From positions 1,054,001-1,118,000 of the forward strand of contig NZ_JAINZO010000002.1 of the NCBI RefSeq assembly GCF_020179605.1: 64,000 nucleotides of DNA, given 5' to 3'. Source of the stretch: Geomonas agri. GTDB lineage: Bacteria; Desulfobacterota; Desulfuromonadia; Geobacterales; Geobacteraceae. The position numbers and the translations under genes were made by a program. The notes beneath the pieces were generated by a model that saw nothing but the letters and a program-made list of their open reading frames with translations, was not told where the DNA came from and made no database searches. Below, one piece after another: positions 1 to 27,494 of this stretch (positions within the stretch are counted from its first letter, which is position 1; every line of letters starts with the position of its first letter).

Positions 1-22
1 TCCTGAGGTTGCCCTTCTGCAT
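1..22 (-). CDS. possible 5' end of a gene running off the left edge
   Basis: An ATG lies on the minus strand six bases after an AGGAG ribosome-binding site, and the frame stays open for seven codons (MQKGNLR) to the window edge. It would follow the 2,260-residue surface protein gene by about 65 bases, so it could be a fifth gene of that operon. Too little is present to name it. The octamer tcctgagg occurs twice here (1-8 and 31-38). Confidence 0.3.
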
Positions 23-89: not shown

Positions 90-3000
90 CTATTCGCCGC
101 GGTTCAGGGCGGCCAATCCTTCCTTGACGGAGTTCTGATCGAATTTGAAACGGAACTGGACGAACGGCCCCTGCGCAGTGTAGTTGGCCGCCGAGAAGTC
201 GCGGTCGCGGAAGCCGAGCAGGTTGTAGCCCAGACTGAGCCAGGCATTTTGCATCACGTTGCAGCCGATCGAGGCCCCGAGGCTGTAGTTCACCTGGTGC
301 GCCTGCCAGCTGTGCAGGAGCGATCCGCGCAGCCCGATGTCCCAGGTATCGCTCAGGTCGTGACGCCCCTCCGCGCCGATCAAATCGGTCACGCCGCTGA
401 AATCCTGGTCGTCAAGCTGCTCCAGCACGTATTTGACGCCGTACTGCAGGGAGAGCTGGTTGCGCTTGTCCGGGCGGAAGTTGGCGTTCAGGTTATTGAC
501 GATTCTTCTCCCCTGGGTGGAAGTGTCATTCCCCTTTTCATCCTTCAGTACCAGGTCGAGCCGGTCCAGGACGATCCATTTCGTGACCGGCGGACGGTAG
601 GCGAGCCCTAGCCTCAGGTCGGCATCCGTGCTACGGGCGCCGTCGGTCGAGCGGGTGTGCAGCACCTGCAGTTTGCCGGTCCAGCCCCAGTACAGTCCCT
701 GCTCGTTGGTGAGCCCGGTGATCAGGCCCCACTTGTCCTGGGTTTCGCCGTCGCGGTACTCCACCCGGTTGGACCACAGGAGCTTCTTCTCCTGGTAGGT
801 GGTGCCGAGTGAAACTGCGCTGTAGTCCTCGCCTTCCGAGGCGCTCGGAACTTTGGTGTCGAACTGGTAACCGGTGCTTTTGCGGATGGTCTGGCTGCGG
901 TCGAAGCCGCCGTCGACGGACCAGAAGCTGTTTACCTGCCATTTCTGGGCGAGGCCGACGTTGGCGAAGGTCCTCTCGTCGTTCTCTTTCCGGTCGTTGG
1001 CCATGGAGGTCGAGAAGGTGCCGCCGCTCCAAGGGGTGGCCTTCATGCCGATCCTGGTGGTGTTGCTGTCTGCATCATCGGCCTGGGTAAACTCCTGCTG
1101 GGCGAAGAGGAGCAACGACGGGATCACCTGGAAGTCGGCCCCGAGTATGGTCCTCGTGGGATAGTCCGCGTTCTGGTTCTTGCTGAACAGCGCCTGTTCG
1201 TGGTCGGCCCGCAGCGTCAGGCGCTGGTCCAATGTCTTCCAACTGCCGCCTACCGTGCCCAGGATGGACGTGGCATCTCTGCCATCGGCGAGACTGTCGT
1301 TGGCGTAGCGCAGCCCTGCCTTGCCGGTGAACGTCTTGTCGGTGTAGCCCACTTGGGCTTCGGCGAAGTCCCGCACGTTGTTGTCGATCAGGTTGTACTG
1401 ACGGTAAACCTGGCTCCCCAGCGACACCTGGTCGTTGACGCGGTAGGTCCCTTCGGCGCCGAACTTGCGCGTACCTGCCTCGCTCCCTTTCTGCTGCCCG
1501 AGACCGAAGTTTTCACCCTGTTCGCGGAAGTACGCTTTTCCTTCCAGCTTCTGGTCCAGGTGGGTGATCTCGGCCAGGTACGCGTTGCCGGAAGCCTTGT
1601 CGCCAGGCATGTTGCGTTGCGTCGTGGCGATCTCCGCCCGTGCCTTGGTCCCGGGGGCGAGGGTTGCTGTGGCGTCGGCGCCGTACAGGTTGCTGTCGCC
1701 GCTCACGTGGCCCTCGTGGATGTAGCTGCCGCCCATCTTCAGCTTTCCGTCCAGCAGCTTGACGCCGGCCCGGCCGCCATAGGTCAGCGCCTCGCCGCCG
1801 GCGTCGGTGACCTCGTAATCCACAACGATGTAGATCGGGTTGAGCTGGTCGTCCTTGCTGAACACCGGGCTCTTGAAGAAGATGGTGCCCGCCTCGTAGT
1901 CGATGCTGTAGTCGATGAAGCGGCTCAAAGCGCGACTGTCCAATACCCTCTCGCTATGGAAGCGGTCGCGCGACTCGATGGTGATGTTCTCTGAGTTGGC
2001 AACCAGCCCCCTGCGGCTCAGGCGGTAGAGCCCCGAGGTGCCGTCGCCGCGCAGTTCGTCCTTCACGAAGGACTGCCCGGTTTCGCTACCGAAGGCCGTG
2101 GCCTCGTAATCCTTAGAGCGGAATTCGGTCTTGACGCCGTTGAGCCTGCGGCTGTAACGGGACAGCTCGGTGACCGAAAGGCCGGTATCGAAATCGCCCA
2201 GCATGGCGCTGAACTGGTCCCGCTCCACCTTGAGGAAGATTTTTCTCTGGCTGGAGGCATCGTAGGCCTGGGCCGTGGCGTCGCCGTAGAGGGTGTAGAA
2301 GGCGTTAGGGTCGATGTTCTGGAACAGCGAGTTACCGGAAACGCCGGTGCTCTTCTTGGCGCTGTCGTAGGACATGGTGAGCAGCCATTCCCCCTTGACG
2401 CTCCCCTTGGCGTAGAAGGCCAGGCGTTCGTCATCGTAGATATGCTCCTGCGTCCCGGCGTCCTTCAGGTTCTGCATGTGGCCGGTGACGGTGTTGTAGC
2501 CGACGGTCCCTTCCGCGAGGCCAACGAGGATCCAGTCGCGCATCTTCGGTTTGACGTAGGTCTCAACGTCCAGGGTCGCCTTGTTGTAGGCGATCTGGGC
2601 CCGGTAGACACCGCTCGCGGTGACCGGCTGGAACTTCATCCACCCCTGGGCGTCAACGGCGATGAGACCGCTGCCGGCGCTGACCGCGAGGGTGCCTGGT
2701 TCGAGGTAGGGGCGCAGTTCGCCGCCCTTGAGCGCCAGCTCCGCGTTGGCCGGCACCGGTTTGCCGTCCTGGTCCAAGAGCTCTATGCGCACGAGCACCG
2801 GCGTGCGGCCGTCGGCGACGTTGCCCTCGGCGCTCACCAGTCTGATGGCGGCAATCTCACCGGTCCTGGTCAACTTGGCGTTTTGCTGGTAGCGGGCCAC
2901 GCCGAAGCCATCCATCCCCTTCAACTGGAGCAGATGTTCCCCCTTGCTGCCGAAGTCGATGCCGATGAAGGTGTACAGGCTCTTTTCGCTCTCCTTGTCC

Positions 3001-6000
3001 TTCATCTTGAAGCCGATCTTTTCAGACGGGATCACCTGGCCGTCAAGGACGAGCACCGGCGTAAGCGCCGAATTCAGCACGACCTGAACCGCGTTGACCT
3101 GCGAGGCCAGCACGGTGCCGTCCGCCGGGGAGAGGATGCCTTCCTTTTCCTTGACGTGGAGGTCGGCGTTGGGATCGGCAACCTGGGTCTTGCCCTTGGC
3201 GGTCTTCTCCTCGAAGTCGCTGCTGCTGACGGCGTCCCCGGCCGGCTTTGCCTGGACTTGGGAGGAAGCCGGCAGCGGCGTCACGTCGGGCCGCTCGATC
3301 TCGTCCATGCTGTCAGATAGTTCGGCCGTTGCGCTGAAGGTCTTGAGGGGAACACCTTTGCTATCGCAGAGCTGCACCGTGACGTTGCAGTTCGAGTCTT
3401 CCTCCTTGACCTCAGGGTCCAGCAGAGATTGCAGGCGCAGGTCGAGCTTGCCGTCCTTAGGGAGCTTCTCGAAGCGGTAGACGAGGTCTGCGTCGGTTAC
3501 CACGGGATCGGCCGTGTCGGTGCCGCCGAGGCGGGAAGTGCCGTTCATGTAGAGCAGGCTCTTTGGTAGTGCCAGCTTCACGGTGACGTATCTCCCCTCG
3601 CCCTCAGGGAGATGGGAGGGGGTAAGGGCCTGTCCGCTGACCAACTTTATGCGATGGTGCACCACGCCATCGTTGAGCGCAGAGTACAGCTCCACGCGCT
3701 CCTGCGCGGGTTTTGCGGCCTGCGCGCCGGCTGGGGCGGGCGCCACTGGAACCGTCGCCGCCGGGGCCGTTACTGCTGCCGGAGCCGTCACAGTCGTCGG
3801 AGTCGTCGGAGTCGTCGGAGTCGTCGGAGTCGTCGGAGTCGTCGGAGTCGTCGGAGTCGGTGCCGCTGTTACTGCCGGAGCGACGGGCACGCTGACCTGC
3901 TGCTTCTTGACGCCGCTTCTGTCCTTGATCATGGCCACTCGCGTGGACTGCACGTTCCGGGACAGTGACACCTTGACTTCCACGCGACGGTTCAGGGCGC
4001 GGCCGGCGTCGCTCCTGTTGCTGGCCATCGGCTCCCGCTCTCCACGGCCGTTCAGGTACAGGGCCTCGGGGGGCAGGTGCAGGGCCGCAGTCAGGAAGCG
4101 TCCGACGTTTTTGGCGCGGGCGAAGGAAAGGGCGTTGTTGTCCTGGTAGACGTTCCGGCTGCGCGGCGCGATGCGAACATTGTCGGTATGTCCCGTCACC
4201 TCGATGCGCTCCAGGTTGAACCGGCTCAGCAATTGTGCCAGCGCGGCCAGGTCTTTCTTGTCTTGGTCGCCCAACTCGGCGCCGAAGGTAGGGAAATGCG
4301 GCCGCAGCACCATTGGCGGCAGCGACACCCTGCTCTGCTCAGTCACCAGTGACAGGATGTTGTCCACCTCGGGAGCAACAACTCCTTTTGCGGCGGAGGT
4401 GTCGAAGCTGAGGCTGGCCTTCGTTTGCAGCGCTCCCCCTTGGGTCGCGCCGTCCAGGCCTGTCTTGAAGCGCAGCTCTCGCACCCAGGCAGGGCCTGCG
4501 GCTCCGAGGCGGTAGCTGAGCCGGTCACCGCTGATCTCGGGGTCGGCGTACGGCGCATTGTCAACGTTGCTGCTCCCTTTGCGGTAGTTCACCCCTTTGG
4601 GCAGGGTCACGGTCAGGAGGAGGTTATCAAGCGGGATCCCTGCCGTCTGCATCGGGATTCGGTACTCGATGACGTCACCGTTTTGGCTGCTGATCATCTC
4701 GAGGCTCACCTCGCCCTGGTAGCGCGGGTCCGTCGCCTGCGGCGCAGCCGGTGCAGCCCCAGCCGAAGCTGCGGCTGCACCTGGCTGGTGAACGGAGGCG
4801 TCCGCGCCTGCGGCGCCGGCCGCAGGGGCCGCCTCGGCCGAGCCGGTCGAGCCGGATGTAGTGGACGCAGTGACCGAAACCGGATTTGCGGAGGTGCCTG
4901 CCGGTGTGGATGCGTCGGGTACCGTCTCACGTGGGCCGGTCGCCTGCTCGCCTACCCTGCCCAGGTAGAAGTCGGTACGCCACATGGTCCCCCCCTGCAG
5001 CTCCGCAAACTGCGAGTAGGCGCGACCGGCAAAGCGGCTGTTCTTCTCGCACTGCTGCACCTGGTAGCCGTCCGGGACCGAGTCGATGTCAAGCTGGACC
5101 ACGTGCGTTCCTGATGCGACTCCCTCGAAATGGAACATGCCGCGCTTGTCGCTCACGACGAAGGTGCCGTCCTCGAGGTAGATGCCGATCCCCTCCATTC
5201 CCTTCTTGTTGTCCTCGGGATTCTCGCCGCACGCCCCCACGAAGACGCGTCCCATGATGATGTTGCGGCTCTGCAGGAACGGCTCCTGCACCGTCACCGC
5301 CGCGGTGGCCGGTACTGAGCTGACCGGGGGGGTGGTGCTGGCCGCGGCCGTATTGACGGCGGTGCCGGGCTTGGCCCCCGCTCCGACCACGACCACGTAA
5401 CGGATCAGGGTCGAGCTTTTGGGCGCCAGGGTGCCGGCGTTGAAGGTGAGGGTAGTGCCGTCGGCCGATATGGCCGGGTCTGCAACGGGCGCACCGTTCA
5501 GCCGCGCCGAACCCTTCTGATAGCGGAACCCGGCCGGGAGCTGGTCCGTCACCACGATGTTGAAGACGGTGCCCACCGCATCGGAGTTCTGCAGGGTGAC
5601 GTCGTAGCTCAGGTAGTCACCTGCGGAAACCACGCTCTTGGACGCGCTCTTTCTCAGCCAGAGAGTGCCGATCTTCGGGTCGATCGGAATGTCGACGCGG
5701 ATGGCGGGGCCGGCCGATACCACGAACACCTCGCCGCGCGACCCGGGCTCCAGGATGTTGAAGGGGGCGCCGGGCAGGGACTGCAGCCGCGCCGTGGTCA
5801 CGGTGGAGGGCGCGGTGTAGGTGTCGGGCGACGTTATTTTCAACCGGTAGTTACCCGGGGTGACATACGGGAAGCGGTATCCCCCCGGGCTGAATGCGTA
5901 GATCCTCCCCTCGCTGTCCTTGGCCACGCCGCCGGTTACCACCTTGCTCGGATAGGTGTTGGCGGGCAGGCCGTTATCGCCCAGCACCGTGGCGCCCAAC

Positions 6001-6872
6001 CCGGTGTCGGCGTCGATCAGCTCGACCGTCACGCCGTCGACCGGTTTTCCGGTGACCGAGTCGAAAACGATACCGAAGGGGTCGACGACGGCGGCCGCGG
6101 CGCTGCTGTCGCTGCCATCAACCTTGTCGACGTACCGTACCTTGATCTCCGAAGATTCGGAGACGCTCAGTACGCCGTTTTTAGCGGCGCTGGGTTCAGA
6201 GGTCGTCTGGATGTATCCCACGAAAACACCGGTGTCAGGGCCAGTCTCCGTGAGCTGAAGCACCTCGGTGTCACCGGTGCTGGGGTCGGTGATGGTCACC
6301 TGCACCGTTTCGGCCGCCTCGCGGTCCAGGTTCTGGTCCGGATCGGTGACCCGCACGAACAGCGGCTCGCCGGCGTGGTAGGTGTTGGAAGAGGTAAGCT
6401 GCACCGGCTTGGACAGGTCGATGGTGCCCTGGCTGCCGGTGGCAACGGGGGCCGACAGCGGCTCCAGCGTGCCGTTGCCATCATAGAAGGAGGTGGCGGG
6501 GACGGTCACGCTGCTGGCGCCGGCGACGGCGGGAGCATATTTCAGGAACTCTGCCGTCGATGTGGTGCGGACCACCACGGTGACGGTGACCTGGCTGGTC
6601 AGGGTTGGCAGTTCCCGGCAGCTGAACGTGGCCCGGTTCAGGATCAGGTCCCCGTTTGCCGCAGCCATTGCTGTCTGCCCGGACAGCAGCAGACTGAGGG
6701 TAAGGAAAAGGGAGGTGAACAGGGATACGACGCGGCAGTGCACCGGACGCAACTCCGCGGCAGCCCGCGGCACAGGCGTGCCGCGGCCCCGCCGGTCGCC
6801 GCGGGCGCCGGCAAGCTCCCCGGCCCGGAGGCCGGAGAGGCTGCTTAGGATGTTGTAGATCCGGTTCTTCAT
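90..6872 (-). CDS. giant secreted DUF11/OmpA-domain protein with predicted C-terminal outer-membrane beta-barrel
   Basis: About 2,260 residues. The N-terminus has a basic, Arg-rich stretch, then a hydrophobic segment ending in an AMA-type signal peptidase site near residue 73. After that come beta-rich modules: a DUF11-type repeat at about 405-530, a carboxypeptidase-regulatory/SdrD-like module at about 540-640, a second DUF11-like module at about 720-830, an OmpA-type peptidoglycan-binding domain at about 860-970 (EVTGHTDN; NRRVEV), a Thr-Pro repeat linker at about 1005-1028, and another DUF11-like module. From about residue 1445 the pattern is alternating aromatic/polar strands, as in a porin-like barrel. 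It is the last complete gene of a four-gene operon. The start is uncertain: GTG at 6875 and ATG at 6872 are adjacent, both poorly spaced from GGGAG, and a later start nearer the hydrophobic segment is possible. The domain calls are read by eye; the barrel is an inference. Likely role: anchoring a surface structure to outer membrane and peptidoglycan. Confidence 0.85.
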   Translation of the reverse strand: MKNRIYNILSSLSGLRAGELAGARGDRRGRGTPVPRAAAELRPVHCRVVSLFTSLFLTLSLLLSGQTAMAAANGDLILNRATFSCRELPTLTSQVTVTVVVRTTSTAEFLKYAPAVAGASSVTVPATSFYDGNGTLEPLSAPVATGSQGTIDLSKPVQLTSSNTYHAGEPLFVRVTDPDQNLDREAAETVQVTITDPSTGDTEVLQLTETGPDTGVFVGYIQTTSEPSAAKNGVLSVSESSEIKVRYVDKVDGSDSSAAAAVVDPFGIVFDSVTGKPVDGVTVELIDADTGLGATVLGDNGLPANTYPSKVVTGGVAKDSEGRIYAFSPGGYRFPYVTPGNYRLKITSPDTYTAPSTVTTARLQSLPGAPFNILEPGSRGEVFVVSAGPAIRVDIPIDPKIGTLWLRKSASKSVVSAGDYLSYDVTLQNSDAVGTVFNIVVTDQLPAGFRYQKGSARLNGAPVADPAISADGTTLTFNAGTLAPKSSTLIRYVVVVGAGAKPGTAVNTAAASTTPPVSSVPATAAVTVQEPFLQSRNIIMGRVFVGACGENPEDNKKGMEGIGIYLEDGTFVVSDKRGMFHFEGVASGTHVVQLDIDSVPDGYQVQQCEKNSRFAGRAYSQFAELQGGTMWRTDFYLGRVGEQATGPRETVPDASTPAGTSANPVSVTASTTSGSTGSAEAAPAAGAAGADASVHQPGAAAASAGAAPAAPQATDPRYQGEVSLEMISSQNGDVIEYRIPMQTAGIPLDNLLLTVTLPKGVNYRKGSSNVDNAPYADPEISGDRLSYRLGAAGPAWVRELRFKTGLDGATQGGALQTKASLSFDTSAAKGVVAPEVDNILSLVTEQSRVSLPPMVLRPHFPTFGAELGDQDKKDLAALAQLLSRFNLERIEVTGHTDNVRIAPRSRNVYQDNNALSFARAKNVGRFLTAALHLPPEALYLNGRGEREPMASNRSDAGRALNRRVEVKVSLSRNVQSTRVAMIKDRSGVKKQQVSVPVAPAVTAAPTPTTPTTPTTPTTPTTPTTPTTVTAPAAVTAPAATVPVAPAPAGAQAAKPAQERVELYSALNDGVVHHRIKLVSGQALTPSHLPEGEGRYVTVKLALPKSLLYMNGTSRLGGTDTADPVVTDADLVYRFEKLPKDGKLDLRLQSLLDPEVKEEDSNCNVTVQLCDSKGVPLKTFSATAELSDSMDEIERPDVTPLPASSQVQAKPAGDAVSSSDFEEKTAKGKTQVADPNADLHVKEKEGILSPADGTVLASQVNAVQVVLNSALTPVLVLDGQVIPSEKIGFKMKDKESEKSLYTFIGIDFGSKGEHLLQLKGMDGFGVARYQQNAKLTRTGEIAAIRLVSAEGNVADGRTPVLVRIELLDQDGKPVPANAELALKGGELRPYLEPGTLAVSAGSGLIAVDAQGWMKFQPVTASGVYRAQIAYNKATLDVETYVKPKMRDWILVGLAEGTVGYNTVTGHMQNLKDAGTQEHIYDDERLAFYAKGSVKGEWLLTMSYDSAKKSTGVSGNSLFQNIDPNAFYTLYGDATAQAYDASSQRKIFLKVERDQFSAMLGDFDTGLSVTELSRYSRRLNGVKTEFRSKDYEATAFGSETGQSFVKDELRGDGTSGLYRLSRRGLVANSENITIESRDRFHSERVLDSRALSRFIDYSIDYEAGTIFFKSPVFSKDDQLNPIYIVVDYEVTDAGGEALTYGGRAGVKLLDGKLKMGGSYIHEGHVSGDSNLYGADATATLAPGTKARAEIATTQRNMPGDKASGNAYLAEITHLDQKLEGKAYFREQGENFGLGQQKGSEAGTRKFGAEGTYRVNDQVSLGSQVYRQYNLIDNNVRDFAEAQVGYTDKTFTGKAGLRYANDSLADGRDATSILGTVGGSWKTLDQRLTLRADHEQALFSKNQNADYPTRTILGADFQVIPSLLLFAQQEFTQADDADSNTTRIGMKATPWSGGTFSTSMANDRKENDERTFANVGLAQKWQVNSFWSVDGGFDRSQTIRKSTGYQFDTKVPSASEGEDYSAVSLGTTYQEKKLLWSNRVEYRDGETQDKWGLITGLTNEQGLYWGWTGKLQVLHTRSTDGARSTDADLRLGLAYRPPVTKWIVLDRLDLVLKDEKGNDTSTQGRRIVNNLNANFRPDKRNQLSLQYGVKYVLEQLDDQDFSGVTDLIGAEGRHDLSDTWDIGLRGSLLHSWQAHQVNYSLGASIGCNVMQNAWLSLGYNLLGFRDRDFSAANYTAQGPFVQFRFKFDQNSVKEGLAALNRGE
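3793..3861. repeat. 9-bp tandem repeat inside the giant surface-protein gene
   Basis: About seven and a half perfect copies of the 9-mer agtcgtcgg. On the coding (minus) strand they encode an uninterrupted Thr-Thr-Pro/Thr-Pro-Thr linker between the OmpA-like domain and the following beta module. The unit is a multiple of three, so slippage would change linker length without breaking the frame. Confidence 0.9.
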
Positions 6873-6891
6873 CACGCTGCCGTGTTTCTCC

Positions 6892-8154
6892 CTACTTGAT
6901 CTTCACCTGGTAGGCGATGGTTACACCCTTGCCGATCGGGATGGTGCCGGGGGTGGTGGCGTTGGCGTTGACACCGACGTTGACCACGAGGTTCGGAGAG
7001 TTCCCCGCCACGTAGCTTGCCTGGTTGGCGCCGACAGCCCCGGCCGCGATGGTCGAGGTGACGCCGTTGGTGTCGATGTAGAAGACCGGCCTGGAGCCGG
7101 TGTAGGCAGGGATCGGATCGGTGACGTAGCTGGTCGGCACGTAGTCCGAAACCGCGCACGCGGTGAGGTCGAAGGCGCTGGCGCCACTGTTCGATGCCTC
7201 GACGACGTACTCGATGGTGTCGCCCGGCTTGCCGGTCACCCCTCCCGTGTAATAGGGGAGGGAGCCCGCGCCGGTGTTGCCCTCGACGGAGGTGTTGTAG
7301 TGGGCTGTCCCGGTTCCCGCCACCGGGACGGTCACGTTCCTGGAGTACTTCTGGAAGGTGATAGTGGGCGGGGTGGACGTCCACTTGTTGGCCGGTGCGG
7401 TGGTGGCGGTGCCGGCCGGGAAGTTCGGCGCGGTAACGTCGACCTTGACCGTGGTGGTGAGATCCATGCCGAGGGTGGTGATGGTGCCCGGCTTGGCGGT
7501 CAGGTTCACCTGCTGGCGCTCGCCGACCTGGACACCGGCGCCGAGAATGTCGCCGGCCTGGATCGCCTCGGAGTTGGCCCAGTAAATGGTGAAGGTGTTG
7601 GTGCTCGCGCTGTACTGGGTCGAGGTGACCTTGGGGGTGTAGGTGTGGCTGTTCACCGTGAAGACGATGATGTCGTTCACCGCGATGCCGTTCACCTCCG
7701 AGTCGGCGCTAACACCGCCGCCGATGGGCGCCGGTACCACGATCGAGGTGGTGCTGCCGGTGCCGGCGGTGATGGTGGCGCCAAGCACGACGCTGGTGCC
7801 GCCGGTCACGCTGGCGCCGGTGCTGTTGCTGGCAGCGGTCACCGACGGGGTCACCGTGTAGGTGGCCGGGCCGTTGGCGGATGAGGTTATGGTGACGGTA
7901 TCGGCGATGCCGGGGGTATCCGGTCCCTGGTAAGCGGCGTCGCCCCTGGTGATGGTCACGTTGGGGAGCGCCGGCACCAAGTCAACCTTGACCGTGACCG
8001 AGCTTTCGGCGGTGAGGCCGCCGTTGTAGGAAAGCACGGCGCGGTTCACGATGGCGGTATTGGCGGCCGTGCTGGCAAAGGAAACCTGGGCGCACAACAC
8101 CGCCGGAGCCGCCAGCGCAAGCGCTAGCAGCGATTTTGTTGCAGTTCTCAACAC
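6892..8154 (-). CDS. secreted DUF11-like surface protein (420 aa)
   Basis: The start is GTG at 8154, five bases after a perfect AGGAGG. A signal peptide (hydrophobic segment at about 7-27) is followed by a Thr/Val/Gly-rich, Cys-poor, beta-strand-rich body. The region just after the signal (AIVNRAVLSY, then SVTVKV) resembles the equivalent region of the genes on either side. The C-terminal third looks like a DUF11 module (GDTIEYVVEASNSG, ending in IAYQVKIK). DUF11 modules are common in bacterial surface proteins and have no known catalytic role. It sits third in the riboswitch-controlled operon, with 58 bases to the upstream gene and 19 to the giant gene. A structural or adhesive subunit is an inference. 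Confidence 0.85.
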   Translation of the reverse strand: MLRTATKSLLALALAAPAVLCAQVSFASTAANTAIVNRAVLSYNGGLTAESSVTVKVDLVPALPNVTITRGDAAYQGPDTPGIADTVTITSSANGPATYTVTPSVTAASNSTGASVTGGTSVVLGATITAGTGSTTSIVVPAPIGGGVSADSEVNGIAVNDIIVFTVNSHTYTPKVTSTQYSASTNTFTIYWANSEAIQAGDILGAGVQVGERQQVNLTAKPGTITTLGMDLTTTVKVDVTAPNFPAGTATTAPANKWTSTPPTITFQKYSRNVTVPVAGTGTAHYNTSVEGNTGAGSLPYYTGGVTGKPGDTIEYVVEASNSGASAFDLTACAVSDYVPTSYVTDPIPAYTGSRPVFYIDTNGVTSTIAAGAVGANQASYVAGNSPNLVVNVGVNANATTPGTIPIGKGVTIAYQVKIK

Positions 8155-8212
8155 ATCTACCTCCTAGGTCGGCTCTCCGGCACCGCTTCGACGCCGGAGA
8201 GCCGATGCGGGT

Positions 8213-9676
8213 TTAGTCCACCTTCACGCGGTACTTAATGGTGTAGGTGCGGTTCCAGGTCAGCGGTGCCACGCAGAGGGCCTGAGTGTTCTTCGTGCTG
8301 TCGCTGCACGAAGGCACTGTGCCGCCTGCCGAGGCGTTGGAGCCTTGACCGAGGTAGAAGTTGAGCGGAAGCCCAGCGGTGACGCCGGCCGCCTTGCCAA
8401 AGCCGACGCTCGGTGCCGGTGTTGACGGCTGGGTTTCACCGGTACCGTCGGTGGTCAGGTTGACGGTGTTGACACCGTCGGAGATCTGGGCGAAGTAGCC
8501 GGTAGTCACAGTGTCGTCGCCAACGCCGTAGCCGTCCTTGTAGACCACGAGCTTGGTGTAGGAGGGGATGCTGTCGAGCACCGCTGCGGCGGTAGCCTGC
8601 CCGCCGTTGTTGGTGACCATGACCTGGTACTCGAGCACCTTGCCCGGGTCGCTGGTGGCGGTGGCACTGAAGCTGCCATTGTCGGTGAAGTTCCTCACCT
8701 GCTTCAGGATTTCCAGTTTGGTGGCGAGGAAGTTGCCTGCGGTGCAGCTTGCGCCGGCGCTGCCGACGTACTGGGCGTTGTTACCGGAGCTGTCGGTTAC
8801 GGTGAGCTTGTAGTCGACGGTGGCGTCGCTGTCCTTGACGCTGGAGATGGCGCTGACGTCAATTTTTACGATGGCCATTTCGCCGACCACGGTACCGACG
8901 GCGGGAGCGGCGGTGTTGAAGGCGGGAGCAGCGCCGCCGTCACCGATGCCGTTCACGTTGGTGTATGCCTCGACCTGGATCTGGTCGCGCAGCTCGTCGG
9001 TCTTGTTGCCGGTCGTGGTGCTGGCGACGGGACCGTTCACGGAGTATCCCGCGGCATGGCCGAGGGTTACTGCCTTCACCAGGTAAGCAGTCTTGGTCGT
9101 GCCGTAGTCGACGACCACGATGTCGCCGGCGACGAAGCCCCCGTCCGCCGCGGCTTTCAGCGAGCCGCCCGGGAAGAGCAGGGTGTCGGTGCCCGAGGTG
9201 CCGACAACGATGGCGCTGTTCAACATGAGGTCGCTTGCCGCTGAGGTGGCGGATGCCTGGACGGTGCCGTCAGCTTTCAGGACGGTGTAGGTTGCGCTGC
9301 TGGTGCTTGCGTTGTGCGGGGCGTTGGAGATGGACACCTTGTAGGTGTCCTGGCCGTTGGCAGTCGCAGTCAGGGCATAGAGAGCGCTGAAGGTGCCACC
9401 GGAGGCATAGCTGCCGAGGGCCGCGCAGGCGAACGCAGGGGTGTAGTTAGCGCTGCTGGGCGGGGTGGAGACGTTCAGGCCCGCCTTGACCAGGTTTACG
9501 GTGACCGTGGTGGAGAAGGCCGCGCTAAACGAGGTGGTGTTGCTGGCGTCTTTGTAGTCCACTGTAACAACGTTGAGGATGGTGGTGCCGGCGGTGGTGC
9601 TGGCGCTGGCTGTTGCCGGCACGCCGGCGGCCGCCATGGCAGCGACGGCCAGGGCGGCGAAGAGGTTGCGCTTCAT
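8213..9676 (-). CDS. secreted DUF11-like surface protein (487 aa)
   Basis: ATG at 9676 follows AAGGAG by a few bases; the upstream in-frame extension lacks such a site. A signal peptide (residues 1 to about 26, ending ATASAS) leads into a Ser/Thr/Ala-rich beta body. The motif GTTILNVVTVDY just after the signal parallels the other operon members. A DUF11-like module fills the last third (KVLEYQVMVTNNG, TYTIKYRVKVD at the end). There are four Cys residues in the mature part. It is the second gene of the operon. Its C-terminal ending (YRVKVD) resembles those of the 420-aa (YQVKIK) and 165-aa (FKVKVK) products, which supports a shared terminal domain. Function unknown; probably a surface structural component. 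Confidence 0.85.
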   Translation of the reverse strand: MKRNLFAALAVAAMAAAGVPATASASTTAGTTILNVVTVDYKDASNTTSFSAAFSTTVTVNLVKAGLNVSTPPSSANYTPAFACAALGSYASGGTFSALYALTATANGQDTYKVSISNAPHNASTSSATYTVLKADGTVQASATSAASDLMLNSAIVVGTSGTDTLLFPGGSLKAAADGGFVAGDIVVVDYGTTKTAYLVKAVTLGHAAGYSVNGPVASTTTGNKTDELRDQIQVEAYTNVNGIGDGGAAPAFNTAAPAVGTVVGEMAIVKIDVSAISSVKDSDATVDYKLTVTDSSGNNAQYVGSAGASCTAGNFLATKLEILKQVRNFTDNGSFSATATSDPGKVLEYQVMVTNNGGQATAAAVLDSIPSYTKLVVYKDGYGVGDDTVTTGYFAQISDGVNTVNLTTDGTGETQPSTPAPSVGFGKAAGVTAGLPLNFYLGQGSNASAGGTVPSCSDSTKNTQALCVAPLTWNRTYTIKYRVKVD

Positions 9677-9853
9677 AGGATCTCCTTTTTTGTGATGCAT
9701 CAATTCAAATAAAAAATAGCAATGGTGTTTCCGGTCCTGCCTGTACTGCTTCTACATGTGCTGCTGATACTGTCGGTAAGGTTCCTTCTTAATTTTGGGT
9801 CATAAGCGCTCCTTGTTTTTTCATCTTGTAAGTTGTCTTCGTGTATGTACTGG

Positions 9854-10351
9854 CTATTTCACCTTTACCTTGAAGCTGACCGAGCCTTTGCCGCCGGCCG
9901 GCACCTGCGGGATGGTCCAGCGTATATCGGTGTATTCCTCGGGAGCCGCCACCTTCTTCTCCATCTTTCCGGTGCTCCCTTTCAGTTCGTAGGTCAGCAG
10001 GGTCGGCTTCTTGAAGCTCTTCCCTTTGTCGATGGAGAAGGTCAAGTCGGCGGTGTCACTGGCGCTGCCGGGGATATAGGCGGTGCCGGCGGGTATCGGA
10101 TCGCTGATGACGACGTCTTTGGCGGCTTCGGTCCCGGAGTTCATGTAGTTCAAGGTGTAGATGATCTCGTCGCCAGGCTGCACACCTTTGGCGGCGATCC
10201 GCTTCTTCACCTGCTTTCCTTTGGCGGTGACATTCACCTCTTTCTCAGCCTTGATCGAAATGGAGACCTTGGGCTGTGCCCAGGCGGCAAGCGGCATGGC
10301 TGCCACGGCGAGGGCAATGGTTGCTGCAATTAAACTCTTGTTTCTCTTCAT
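9854..10351 (-). CDS. small secreted single-DUF11 protein (165 aa)
   Basis: First gene of the operon. ATG at 10351 follows AAGGAG. A cleavable signal peptide (ending AAWAQ, about residue 26) precedes one DUF11 domain covering nearly all of the mature protein (GDEIIYTLNYMNSG; DVVISDPIPAGTAYI). A single module without Cys suggests a soluble periplasmic or surface subunit. The next gene is 177 bases downstream, a longer gap than elsewhere in the operon. Expression is expected to depend on the riboswitch and terminator found 115-300 bases upstream. Family knowledge gives no biochemical activity. Confidence 0.85.
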   Translation of the reverse strand: MKRNKSLIAATIALAVAAMPLAAWAQPKVSISIKAEKEVNVTAKGKQVKKRIAAKGVQPGDEIIYTLNYMNSGTEAAKDVVISDPIPAGTAYIPGSASDTADLTFSIDKGKSFKKPTLLTYELKGSTGKMEKKVAAPEEYTDIRWTIPQVPAGGKGSVSFKVKVK

Positions 10352-10433
10352 CTTTTTCTCCTTGTTGCGCTGCTGGTGCGCGGTTGGTTACAAGACTAAA
10401 ACTGTTGTGTTGACACTATAAGACCAGCTGATA

Positions 10434-10447
10434 CGCCTACTTAGGCG
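10434..10447. other. short palindrome in the leader between terminator and first operon gene
   Basis: CGCCTA-ct-TAGGCG is a perfect 6-bp inverted repeat between the riboswitch terminator and the first gene of the DUF11 operon. It could be a protein-binding site or a minor RNA hairpin; nothing else supports either reading. Confidence 0.3.
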
Positions 10448-10464
10448 GTTTAGATGTATGGATA

Positions 10465-10500
10465 CAAAAATGCCCGTCTGCATGTACAAGGAGACGGGCA
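10465..10500 (-). terminator. intrinsic terminator after the riboswitch aptamer
   Basis: On the minus strand a perfect 9-bp stem (TGCCCGTCT / AGACGGGCA, 12-base loop) is followed directly by five T residues. It lies about 55 bases downstream of the GEMM-I aptamer and 115 bases before the first operon gene, so it probably serves as the expression platform for transcriptional control. Confidence 0.85.
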
Positions 10501-10555
10501 TTATCTTGCCGCAGCGAGGACGCATTGGTCCTCCCCCGGCCCTGACTCCAGATGC

Positions 10556-10650
10556 TCTTCGGTAACCCGGCTGTCCCCTTGTTGGAGGGACCCGTGGCTT
10601 TGCGTCGCCGGATTGCTCCGGGTTTGCCGTTATCGGAGTAGGTATGGACG
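10556..10650 (-). promoter_or_regulatory. GEMM-I class cyclic dinucleotide riboswitch aptamer
   Basis: The minus strand carries the hallmark GEMM-I core: ACGGCAAACC, a 5-bp stem CCGGA/TCCGG closed by a GCAA tetraloop, then GACGCAAAGCC, a second stem-loop (GGGTCC...GGAC), and the conserved 3' GGGTTACCG. These match the conserved segments of the Vibrio Vc2 c-di-GMP-I riboswitch. By hand alignment the residue equivalent to Vc2 G20 is G. That favours c-di-GMP over the cGAMP-selective variants known in Geobacter, in which I recall this position being A; the alignment is by eye. A terminator follows. It should control the four-gene surface-protein operon. Confidence 0.9.
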
Positions 10651-10713
10651 GTTCAGGGTCAGTGCATCATAGGGCTCCTGTTTGGGGCTGTTAGTTAATG
10701 ATTCCGAGATCTT

Positions 10714-11005: not shown

Positions 11006-11830
11006 TCAGTGGGTGTTGCAGAGCACCTGGAGCGCAGAGATTTCGGCGGCGCTGACAGTGATGCCCTGGTGGCCCGGTTGCCCCGCTGAGTACTTCGCCG
11101 GAACCTCACCCCCCTTCAGGGCGAGGTCAGGAGCTCCGGCGGCAGTGGTGTCGAAGCTGCCCAGGGAGTGGCAGGAGGCACACTGTGTCTGGTAGACGGG
11201 TTGTGCCGCCAGGGCCAGCGATCCCGGTGCGGGGAGAACGGCGCCGTAACTACCGACCACGAAATCGAAGCCGGCTGAGACGGTGTACGTAGGTTTGGCG
11301 GGGTCATTGTCGTCTTCAACGATGGCGCTGTAGGAACCGCTGATGCGGTCGCCGGAACTGCCGCCGTAGCGCGTGAAGCTGATGGTTCCACCGACGATGC
11401 GCAACAAGGACGACGGGTGCCCGTTCAGGAAGTACAGGCTGCCCGGGAAGGGGGTGCCGCTGGCATTGCCGAGGGAATAGGTGGCCTGGGTCGAGATGGA
11501 GGCTCCCGGCGCGAGGTCGATCCTCGCAATGGTCTTGTAGTCAGGATCGTTGAGGCTCGTGGCGATGGCAGCCCGGAAGACGATACCGAGATTGGAAACG
11601 CTCGAGGATAGGTAGGTTGCCTTTTCCAAACCGTATTGGTCGCTGGTCACCGTGTAGGAATTGCTGGCCACGGGGGCATTGCTGGCGTTGATGCCGGTCG
11701 GGTTGGTCCCGCCGCCACCCCCACCGCACGCCGCGAGTAGGAGGAGTGCCAAGCCAAGTGCCGCCGTAGCTATCAGGGGGGGGCGGGAGCCATTTCCCTT
11801 GTTGTTCTTTATTGGTGTCGTGCTGTTCAT
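11006..11830 (-). CDS. lipoprotein with a single c-type haem motif (274 aa)
   Basis: ATG at 11830 follows a G-rich ribosome-binding site. The N-terminus is basic, then hydrophobic, ending in a lipobox (LLAAC, Cys about residue 35) and a Gly run typical of Geobacter lipoproteins. The middle (about 50-205) is Ser/Thr/Gly-rich and beta-like with no family I recognise. Near residue 215 the motif CASCH marks one covalently bound c-type haem, and the last 60 residues resemble a small monohaem domain (a Met about 20-40 residues on as sixth ligand is not obvious). A membrane-anchored electron carrier or redox sensor is plausible. It is transcribed toward the riboswitch operon but separated from it by about 350 bases. 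Confidence 0.8.
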   Translation of the reverse strand: MNSTTPIKNNKGNGSRPPLIATAALGLALLLLAACGGGGGGTNPTGINASNAPVASNSYTVTSDQYGLEKATYLSSSVSNLGIVFRAAIATSLNDPDYKTIARIDLAPGASISTQATYSLGNASGTPFPGSLYFLNGHPSSLLRIVGGTISFTRYGGSSGDRISGSYSAIVEDDNDPAKPTYTVSAGFDFVVGSYGAVLPAPGSLALAAQPVYQTQCASCHSLGSFDTTAAGAPDLALKGGEVPAKYSAGQPGHQGITVSAAEISALQVLCNTH

Positions 11831-16284: not shown

Positions 16285-17349
16285 ATGCTCAACACCATCA
16301 CCGATAAAGTCGCCGCCGGCGCAGACATAACCTTCGAAGAGGCCCTCTGGTGCCTCAACGAGGGGGACCTCCTCGCCATAGGGCGCATCGCCGACTCCAT
16401 TCGCCGCAGCATGCACCCCGACAACTGCGTCAGCTTCGTGGTGGATCGCAACGTCAACTACACCAACGTCTGCGAGTCCCAGTGCAAGTTCTGCGCGTTC
16501 TACCGCAACCCCGGGGCCGAGGACGCCTACCTCCTGGACTCCGAGACCATCATGGCCAAGATCCAGGAGCTGGTGGACCAGGGAGGGACGCAGCTCCTGA
16601 TGCAGGGAGGGCTGCACCCCTCGCTCGATATCACCTACTTCGAGACCTTGTTCCGCGAGATCAAGCGACGCTTCCCCGGCGTCCAGAACCATTCCCTGTC
16701 TCCGGCCGAGATCACCCATACCGCCAAGCTCTCGGGCCTCTCCATTCCGGAGACCTTGAAACGACTCAAGGAGGCGGGGCTAGATTCGGTCCCGGGCGGC
16801 GGGGCGGAGATCCTGGTGGATAGTGTGCGCGCCGAGATCTCCCCGAAGAAGATCGGCTGGCAAGGATGGGCGGAGGTCATGCGCGAGGCGGCGAAGCTCG
16901 GCATGCCCACCACCGCGACCATGATGTTCGGCAGCAAGGAGCGTGTCGAGGATGTGGTCGAGCACCTGTTCCGTGTGCGCGAGCTGCAGGCGCAGGGAGG
17001 CAGTTTCACCGCCTTCATCCCCTGGACCTACCAGCCCGGCAACACCGAACTTGGCGGCGAGACCGCCAGCGGAGTGGAATACCTCAAGGTCCTGGCCCTG
17101 TCCCGCATCGTACTCAGGAACATCCCCAACATCCAGGCGAGTTGGGTGACCCAAGGGGCGAAGATGGCCCAGGTCGCACTCTTCTTCGGCGCCAACGATG
17201 TCGGCGGCACGATGCTGGAAGAAAACGTGGTGGCCGCGGCGGGGTGCCGCTTCCGCATGTCGCAGCAGCAGATGATCGACCTCATTAAGGGTGCCGGCTT
17301 CACTCCGGTCCGCCGTACTACTCTCTACAGGGAACTGGAGCGGTATTAG
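16285..17349 (+). CDS. mqnC: cyclic dehypoxanthinyl futalosine synthase MqnC (radical SAM)
   Basis: 354 residues. MqnC cyclises dehypoxanthine futalosine in the futalosine route to menaquinone. The radical SAM cluster is CESQCKFC within NYTNVCESQCKFCAFYRN (about 59-76), and the typical MQGGLHPSLDITYFE and SVPGGGAEILVDSVR segments follow. It is clearly paralogous to the MqnE 69 bases upstream. The ribosome-binding site before ATG 16,285 is weak, so the start is the least certain part, but the length fits the family. Confidence 0.94.
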   Translation: MLNTITDKVAAGADITFEEALWCLNEGDLLAIGRIADSIRRSMHPDNCVSFVVDRNVNYTNVCESQCKFCAFYRNPGAEDAYLLDSETIMAKIQELVDQGGTQLLMQGGLHPSLDITYFETLFREIKRRFPGVQNHSLSPAEITHTAKLSGLSIPETLKRLKEAGLDSVPGGGAEILVDSVRAEISPKKIGWQGWAEVMREAAKLGMPTTATMMFGSKERVEDVVEHLFRVRELQAQGGSFTAFIPWTYQPGNTELGGETASGVEYLKVLALSRIVLRNIPNIQASWVTQGAKMAQVALFFGANDVGGTMLEENVVAAAGCRFRMSQQQMIDLIKGAGFTPVRRTTLYRELERY

Positions 17350-27288: not shown

Positions 27289-27494
27289 TAATTTCTTAAT
27301 GCAGCTCTCTCCGCCCTGTCGTTTGGTTGTGGGGGCCTCACAGCGAGTTCCCATTCAGGTGGGCTCCTGTAGATCGCTTTAGGCAATTCCCGCGCAATGG
27401 GGCAGCACACCACGATCGAAACAGGCTCCCGTACAATAAATTATTCCGCAGGGGCGTTAATAACCTCACGGGCACGGCAGAGAGAGCGTGTAGT
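27268..27494 (-). ncRNA. ssrS: probable 6S RNA (SsrS-like)
   Basis: The transcript is bounded by a near-consensus promoter and an intrinsic terminator, contains no plausible gene, and folds as a long rod. The closing stem pairs GCTCTCTCTGCC (27,487-27,476) with GGGCGGAGAGAGC near 27,304-27,316. Inside, GGGAGCCTGT pairs with ACAGGAGCCC around a 2x2 loop, and GATCG with CGATC above it. A/T-rich unpaired stretches lie between, as in the promoter-mimicking bubble of 6S RNA. The span between the closing strands, about 185 nt, equals the usual mature 6S length. 6S RNA binds sigma-70 RNA polymerase holoenzyme. The name rests on shape, size and context, not on a profile search. No fau/ygfA neighbour is present. 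Confidence 0.6.

Follow-up and report, generated by a model that had tools for sequence, protein, structure and literature searches.

Which signal governs a set of giant secreted proteins in the soil bacterium Geomonas agri, and does that signal turn them on or off? The question is raised by a 64,000-nucleotide (nt) stretch of the genome (contig NZ_JAINZO010000002.1, positions 1,054,001 to 1,118,000; hereafter the window), in which an operon on the minus strand is headed by a riboswitch of the GEMM-I family. We consider it probable that this riboswitch responds to cyclic di-GMP (c-di-GMP) and controls, through transcription termination and as an OFF switch, an operon for a peptidoglycan-held outer-membrane barrel and its surface partners. 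Computation finds the aptamer, the terminator, the gene set, its wide conservation and, across the class, its pairing with the riboswitch directly, while the surface role of the operon is what we infer from the encoded proteins.

The riboswitch and the gene cassette behind it

An earlier note, made from the sequence of this DNA alone, had proposed a GEMM-I aptamer on the minus strand, and this was borne out by two Rfam covariance models, both scoring above their gathering thresholds. RF01051 matched a full-length aptamer at 10637-10557 with 69.9 bits (E = 2.1e-13, gathering 35) and RF03167 matched the same aptamer with 64.2 bits (E = 7.4e-13, gathering 59). A third model, R1, which was built from GEMM-I sequences of this bacterial class, gave 92.1 bits, the window sequence being part of R1's own alignment. 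When RF01051 was searched against control genomes, none of the 14 matched; in the G. agri genome, where 150 of 354 first-look candidates were scored, the window aptamer was the strongest of the 20 matches listed. The clan contest between the Rfam models was won by RF03167 (GGC). The different ligand suggested by the 'GGC' of that name was considered and dropped, the base read as 47 being A and not G. We therefore take the window riboswitch to be of the usual c-di-GMP type, an ordinary member of the GEMM-I family. The leader comprises the following elements, P1 helix meaning here the RNA helix and P1 to P5 the proteins of the operon:

10666-10694, minus strand: weak sigma-70-like promoter match CTAACA-17-TATGAT from a pattern scan, a possible leader start
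10635-10639, minus strand: ACUCC, the 5′ strand of the extended P1 helix
10557-10637, minus strand: GEMM-I aptamer with c-di-GMP-type signature (RF01051, RF03167, R1)
10539-10549, minus strand: switch strand GGAGUCAGGGC, whose partner is either ACUCC (extended P1 helix) or the terminator 5′ arm (antiterminator)
10490-10499, minus strand: 5′ arm of the terminator with its apex, GCCCGUCUCC, to which the switch strand can pair instead
about 10502-10466, minus strand: intrinsic terminator hairpin and U-run

The terminator that had been predicted after the aptamer is present as a hairpin of 10-11 pairs, AAUGCCCGUCU...AGACGGGCAUU, followed by U5, with a folding energy of -17 to -21 kcal/mol depending on the chosen ends. 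A simple terminator scan, which admits loops of 3-8 bases, left it out; the loop of this hairpin seems to exceed that range. The fold of the 184-nt leader had a z-score of -3.75. The promoter scan returned 2 sites against 0.6 expected in shuffles, which is no evidence of function.

The genes behind this leader form a cassette made of P4 (a small DUF11 protein), P2 and P3 (immunoglobulin-like, Ig-like), P1 (an OmpA domain and a predicted barrel) and P5 (a large DUF11 protein). All five genes occur in identical order in eight genomes of the genus, G. agri included, and the P1 barrels of five Geomonas records are 92-83% identical. A wider barrel search, from which the best 80 of 204 confirmed stretches yielded 79 named loci (L handles; genomes carry G handles), found the cassette beyond the class as well: by record title the loci belong to Desulfuromonadales, Desulfobacterales, Nitrospirota and Gamma-, Beta- and Zetaproteobacteria. 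A hidden Markov model (HMM) of P4, built from 15 Geobacterales proteins, matched in 57 of the 79 loci, about 10 of these coming from genomes used in its building. Where 6.5 kb or more of upstream sequence was present (53 loci), P4 stood with the barrel in 52, L124 being the sole miss, and the other 21 loci lacking P4 had less than 6.5 kb upstream. P2- or P3-like genes lie between P4 and the barrel in many loci, though in a large share of the P4-bearing ones among the 79 the P2 and P3 HMMs find no match. Distant P1 relatives were also found on Deinococcus and Thermus plasmids. On plasmid p4 of Acinetobacter haemolyticus (L161), which is typed as mobilizable, there is a distant DUF11/barrel cluster (24.9% identity) with OmpA as a separate gene.

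The link between riboswitch and cassette extends across the class. In a class sample of 117 genomes the barrel profile matched 55, paralogues included, and P4 matched 33, three of which (G035, G042, G080) were cut by contig ends. A GEMM-I riboswitch stood at the cassette head in 22 of the 30 assessable P4-bearing genomes, so that most homologous operons of the class retain the aptamer, whose absence from them the earlier note had named as a refutation. Five genomes beyond the sample (G004, G010, G018 twice, G020, G023) bring the total to 29 riboswitch-led cassettes in 27 genomes, some with tandem riboswitches (G012, G104, G131); cassettes in G044 and G065 were cut off. At about 20 riboswitches per genome, we estimate the chance expectation at well under one per cent per cassette.

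Of the 79 named loci, 12 gave strong R1 matches, and each of these is from Desulfuromonadia by title; in one of them, L101, the aptamers lie beyond the cassette, whose own aptamer falls outside the locus. Geobacter sp. AOG1 gave one weak R1 match of 19.9 bits just before P4 (L112 4701-4777), in which the 5′ ligand-reading part is gone and half a terminator follows; this remnant looks like a decayed riboswitch. In one set of loci, 48 had no aptamer match; 21 of these have less than 400 nt of sequence ahead of the first partner gene, or no partner gene is visible in them. No aptamer was found in loci of other phyla with R1, a model built from this class, many of these loci ending before the cassette head. 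Ten of 20 cassette-bearing genomes of other groups carry GEMM-I somewhere in the genome, counted without regard to its position relative to the cassette. A third barrel paralogue of G. agri (L076) and four relatives (L078-L081) had a riboswitch in 0 of 5 cases.

Several further arrangements were seen. In G. agri, two tandem G20 GEMM-I riboswitches (L077, C2:157000-176900, at 16586-16862, minus strand) precede a second, different DUF11/barrel cassette, which encodes another OmpA/barrel protein besides a 2876-aa protein in which DUF11 stretches occur nine times. Eight other genomes (G001, G003, G010, G012, G014, G068, G072, G131) have a same-strand riboswitch 11-16 kb ahead of a barrel of this kind, visible as a pair in five of them. 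In a Geobacter metagenome-assembled genome (L101, 18318-19506), four GEMM-I aptamers lie within 1.2 kb before a long open frame. A 528-aa gene ending in KxDLCE precedes the riboswitch or cassette in six genomes (L162, L163, L164, L166, L167, L168), a recurrent genomic address. In the window, a protein with a CASCH haem motif is encoded before the operon (11006-11830, minus strand), and several Geomonas loci have a gene of comparable length and ending at this place.

Ligand-reading base and direction of the switch

The earlier note had left the ligand between c-di-GMP and the cyclic GMP-AMP (cGAMP) of Geobacter variants. The window aptamer has the c-di-GMP-type signature G20, A47 and C92 (GGCAAACC, GACGCAAAGCC and GGGTTACCG, numbered in what we take to be the Vc2 scheme); the Geobacter cGAMP signature is not in it, position 20 being G, and not the A20 of the cGAMP subclass, both here and in the syntenic Geomonas relatives. 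A change of A20 to G is reported to have turned a Geobacter cGAMP riboswitch into a c-di-GMP riboswitch (PMC6456294); the window aptamer would therefore be of c-di-GMP type, and c-di-GMP its likely ligand in this strain. That it senses cGAMP, like many Geobacter GEMM-I RNAs, seems to us very improbable: one base can indeed change ligand preference (PMC6456294) and A20 aptamers head 13 of the 29 riboswitch-led cassettes of the class, but G20 is found in the window and in 15 other cassettes.

Homologous cassettes thus carry either ligand-reading base. The 16 G20 cassettes are those of G. agri, G001-G004, G008, G010, G012-G014, G016, G018 (contig 33), G023, G072, G104 and G131; the 13 cGAMP-like A20 cassettes are those of G018 (contig 30), G020, G047, G066, G068, G081, G083, G099, G116, G117, G119 and G124 (twice). 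Control of the latter by cGAMP is a lead only and A20 alone may give mixed specificity, because base 20 is a selectivity factor and no hard filter (PMC9262584). About 14 kb beyond the operon (L009, 1127-4338), an A20 GEMM-I riboswitch with an overlapping terminator precedes a 1033-aa protein with several CXXCH haem motifs, judged by eye.

The position of the terminator differs among the riboswitches of G. agri. In nine that we read as A20, and in two of the same look, the terminator starts 12-15 nt inside the aptamer end, a design in which the ligand can block the terminator (ON); the A20/G20 reading of these riboswitches is a rough pattern. In four CTCCGA-type G20 riboswitches, namely the window's, two of the second DUF11/barrel cassette and one before a 1725-aa subtilase/InlB-repeat gene, the terminator lies 39-55 nt beyond the aptamer end. 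In CTCCGA-type leaders and their relatives, a strand after the aptamer can pair with either the aptamer 5′ edge or the terminator 5′ arm, and the helix partners co-vary: GGAGC/GCUCC in G004, GGAGUC/GACUCC in G008, AGAG/CUCU in G023, GCGGAG/CUCCGC before the subtilase gene and GGGGAGUAUGG/CCAUGCUUCCC in G131. Comparison of relatives thus supports two predicted competing helices. In the mechanism that we propose, GGAGUCAGG after the aptamer would pair, without ligand, with the terminator 5′ arm and transcription would continue; with c-di-GMP bound, GGAGUCAGG would be held in the lengthened P1 helix, the terminator would form and the operon would be turned down. The subtilase gene with InlB-type repeats lies at C1:857609 (L017, 601-5899), behind a G20 riboswitch of the same OFF-type design.

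Both pairings were compared with dinucleotide shuffles, taking one leader per group. For 12 G20 leaders the combined Fisher p was 1.1e-5 for the antiterminator (5 of 12 singly below 0.05) and 7e-7 for the extended P1 helix, values that are too small and overstate the support because the leaders share ancestry. Nine A20 leaders, with p values of 0.37 and 0.29, did not rise above the shuffles. An earlier run on eight leaders had given 0.012 and 0.0004. Left out of the larger comparison were, among G20 leaders, those of the seven syntenic Geomonas relatives (eight leaders), the second L077 riboswitch and the inner riboswitch of G104 and, among A20 leaders, the second G124 cassette, G068, G083 and G116. 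Automatic calls of the terminator arm were wrong in this run for G131a and for the A20 controls G066, G020 and G047, whose rows are kept in the Fisher values, and in earlier runs for G004 and G016 (direct test) and for G016, G020 and G047 (eight-leader run). Folding energies were computed from hand-cut strands, which favour pairing by bias and served for energies only. In transcripts ending before the terminator 3′ arm, the antiterminator was the lowest-energy fold in 6 of 10 leaders and nearly minimal in G004 (1.0 kcal/mol off, same helix), and it lost by 1.3 and 2.6 kcal/mol in G012a and G018 (contig 33), respectively.

A number of observations weigh against a c-di-GMP OFF switch in the window. 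The window leader taken alone does not stand out from shuffles for the antiterminator (p = 0.52, 0.42 and 0.33 in three runs), its extended P1 helix giving p = 0.055, and its cut transcript without ligand favours the lengthened P1 helix over the antiterminator by 6.5 kcal/mol. At full length and without ligand, it folds the aptamer with lengthened P1 helix, a middle hairpin and the terminator together. In full-length folds the terminator beats the antiterminator in all 10 leaders, by 1.1-19.5 kcal/mol, so that the switch would have to be kinetic. Of the five other G20 riboswitches of G. agri, three have overlapping terminators and two have none that was found; at least 3 of the 9 A20 control leaders have a doubtful terminator call; and in 8 of the 30 assessable genomes (G032, G037, G049, G075, G086, G093, G108, G118) the cassette has no riboswitch. 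Finally, surface adhesins are usually raised by high c-di-GMP.

This last rule fits a system with the same parts working as an ON switch, in which c-di-GMP would raise expression as for a biofilm matrix or adhesin. The joint ligand-free fold of the window leader would agree with it too. In G. sulfurreducens, genes behind GEMM-Ib riboswitches fell upon deletion of the cGAMP synthase, and cGAMP is thought to stabilise the antiterminator in GEMM-Ib (PMC6456294). Yet the window terminator does not overlap the aptamer, unlike those of the A20 riboswitches of the same genome, nothing but the switch strand was found to pair with the terminator arm, and OFF switching is known for a GEMM-I riboswitch, Cd1 (PMC9262584), so that we regard ON control as rather doubtful. 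Transcriptional control by aptamer and terminator, as the earlier note had it, keeps both of its parts, with a predicted logic of OFF instead of ON. The preferred reading is a Cd1-like OFF switch that would be decided during transcription.

The encoded proteins and their possible roles

The operon had been described as four genes for secreted DUF11 proteins. The four genes are present and their products appear secreted, signal peptides of all operon proteins being assessed by eye only. To these four comes a fifth gene, for P5, which begins at window position 22:

9854-10351, minus strand: P4, 165 aa with one DUF11 domain and a signal peptide seen by eye; the cassette's signature gene
8213-9676, minus strand: P3, 487 aa from the ATG at 9676, secreted by eye, DUF11-like last strand
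6892-8154, minus strand: P2, 420 aa, judged secreted by eye and predicted to be a chain of all-beta, Ig-like sandwiches
90-6875, minus strand: P1, about 2261 aa, with DUF11, OmpA and a C-terminal giant barrel; the true start may lie 3′ of the first GTG
5331-5657, minus strand: DUF11 domain of P1, residues 407-515 (E = 1.6e-8)
3987-4280, minus strand: OmpA domain of P1, residues 866-963 (PF00691, 49.7 bits against 27.2, E = 4.9e-13)
147-1838, minus strand: succession of 32 long beta strands in P1 (residues about 1680-2243), an outer-membrane barrel predicted from a structure model
1-22, minus strand: start of P5, an 868-aa DUF11-like secreted protein running past the window edge

The first possible start of P3 is a TTG (496 aa, 8213-9703), the ATG at 9676 after aaaggag being the likelier one. 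As to the DUF11 assignment, it stands for P1 and P4, which score above cut-off (PF01345 or TIGR01451), whereas P3 gave 20.2 bits against a cut-off of 24 and P2 no match; with the Pfam DUF11 model, neither P2 nor P3 had a match at E 0.1. In the P2 alignment, 14 of 49 members match Pfam DUF11 at E 0.01. Elsewhere in the window, a 6S RNA was found at 27304-27486 (minus strand, 75.7 bits).

The expectation that P1, the last of the four proteins, would combine an OmpA domain with a probable barrel agrees with both the domain match and the structure predictions that had been suggested. P1 was modelled over its C-terminal part from a 43-row alignment (mean predicted local distance difference test score, pLDDT, 77.8; predicted template modelling score, pTM, 0.64), and model residues 419 to 982 form a succession of 32 long strands. 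In the best 50 of 884 Foldseek matches (E up to 10), outer-membrane barrel proteins make up 46. The SlpA complex of Deinococcus heads the list, before LptD, SprA and TonB-type barrels, with PapC included; the remaining four are three ApoB100 chains and one neurofascin. The template modelling (TM) scores of these 50 do not exceed 0.32, which counts against any close reading of them. The model supports an outer-membrane barrel by class, the matches supporting no particular homologue. The last 1000 residues of P1 had no Pfam match and no NCBIfam family among the matches listed, and the barrel had no relative among PDB sequences at E <0.1; SdrD_B and CarboxypepD_reg matches in P1 are weak and below cut-off. 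The P2 model (49-row alignment, mean pLDDT 87.9) is all-beta and Ig-like, with weak structure matches to pilins, adhesins and integrins. Together, the OmpA domain, the barrel, the signal peptides and the Ig-like partners indicate a peptidoglycan-held outer-membrane protein with surface partners. P1 would be a giant beta barrel fixed to peptidoglycan through its OmpA domain, which is expected to bind it, and P2-P5 would be secreted Ig-like/DUF11 partners acting with P1 at or near the surface.

Other roles for P1 can be envisaged. As an envelope tether and porin, resembling Deinococcus SlpA and braced by the small proteins, P1 would form no appendage or matrix; entries of the SlpA complex are its three best Foldseek matches, OmpA would tie the barrel to peptidoglycan and distant relatives occur on Deinococcus and Thermus plasmids, but the TM-score is about 0.2, no SLH domain is among the Pfam matches of P1, and the large and varied P5 and P2/P3 suggest exposure. 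We hold this tether to be possible, if somewhat less than likely to be its main role. An unlikely role is that of a secretion or assembly pore, usher- or SprA-like, which would export or mount P2-P5. The constant gene partnership and the very large barrel would suit such a pore, as would the presence of SprA, LptD and PapC among the best 50 structure matches and the finding that members of four protein families (P2, P3, P4 and P5) end in a [FY]xVx[IV]x strand. Such an ending is, however, usual for DUF11 domains as well, and one locus set was chosen for it and gives no frequency. The structure matches are weak and unspecific, and no usher, chaperone or SprA homologue was recognised in the Pfam matches of P1-P4, in the NCBIfam matches listed (25 of 31 rows for P1) or, for the P1 barrel, among PDB sequences. 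Compared with these roles, a peptidoglycan-held barrel with surface partners is the one we favour. That the assembly forms an appendage or matrix, as the earlier note suggested, is an inference.

Relation to known systems and biological meaning

The window riboswitch resembles the c-di-GMP-I (GEMM-I) families RF01051/RF03167 in its full-length match above both gathering scores and in its terminator, whereas its target is a cassette unnamed in the literature found. From the Geobacter GEMM-Ib (cGAMP) riboswitches, which have the same fold, occur in related bacteria and have counterparts of their look elsewhere in the G. agri genome, it differs by G20 instead of A20 and by a separate, predicted OFF-type terminator instead of an overlapping one. 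Its predicted likeness to Cd1 of Clostridioides difficile is that of a c-di-GMP OFF switch acting via an antiterminator (PMC9262584); Cd1 controls flagellar genes, while the window riboswitch would act on an operon that encodes an outer-membrane barrel and secreted DUF11 proteins. In Deinococcus SlpA, of the S-layer deinoxanthin-binding complex, a large barrel sits in the outer membrane and is attached to the cell wall, with an SLH domain. It is the best structural match of the P1 barrel, at a TM-score of about 0.2 only, and P1 has OmpA instead of SLH, plus DUF11 modules and partner genes. DUF11 domains are shared with methanogen proteins proposed to hold cell aggregates together, which are archaeal and for which the available part of the source mentions no such barrel or riboswitch (PMC10787695). 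A literature search, which did not take in the founding lists of GEMM-I targets, found no description of the cassette, of its GEMM-I link or of the exchange of the ligand base.

A bolder proposal, which we put forward as speculative and improbable at present, is that P4-P2/P3-P1-P5 constitutes a so far undescribed system for assembly at the outer membrane, in which a single-chain barrel among the largest of its kind would work with Ig-like subunits and with P4 as a dedicated small DUF11 helper, and which would be wired cassette by cassette to c-di-GMP or cGAMP by exchange of the ligand-reading base within one bacterial class. The riboswitch connects a widespread, unnamed set of putative surface genes with cyclic-dinucleotide signalling, and does so in a group of bacteria noted for extracellular electron transfer. 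Natural sets of homologous operons with the c-di-GMP or the cGAMP base make it possible to test directly which messenger is used and in which direction the switch works. If the OFF direction is true, giant surface proteins would be made at low c-di-GMP, contrary to the usual rule for adhesins.

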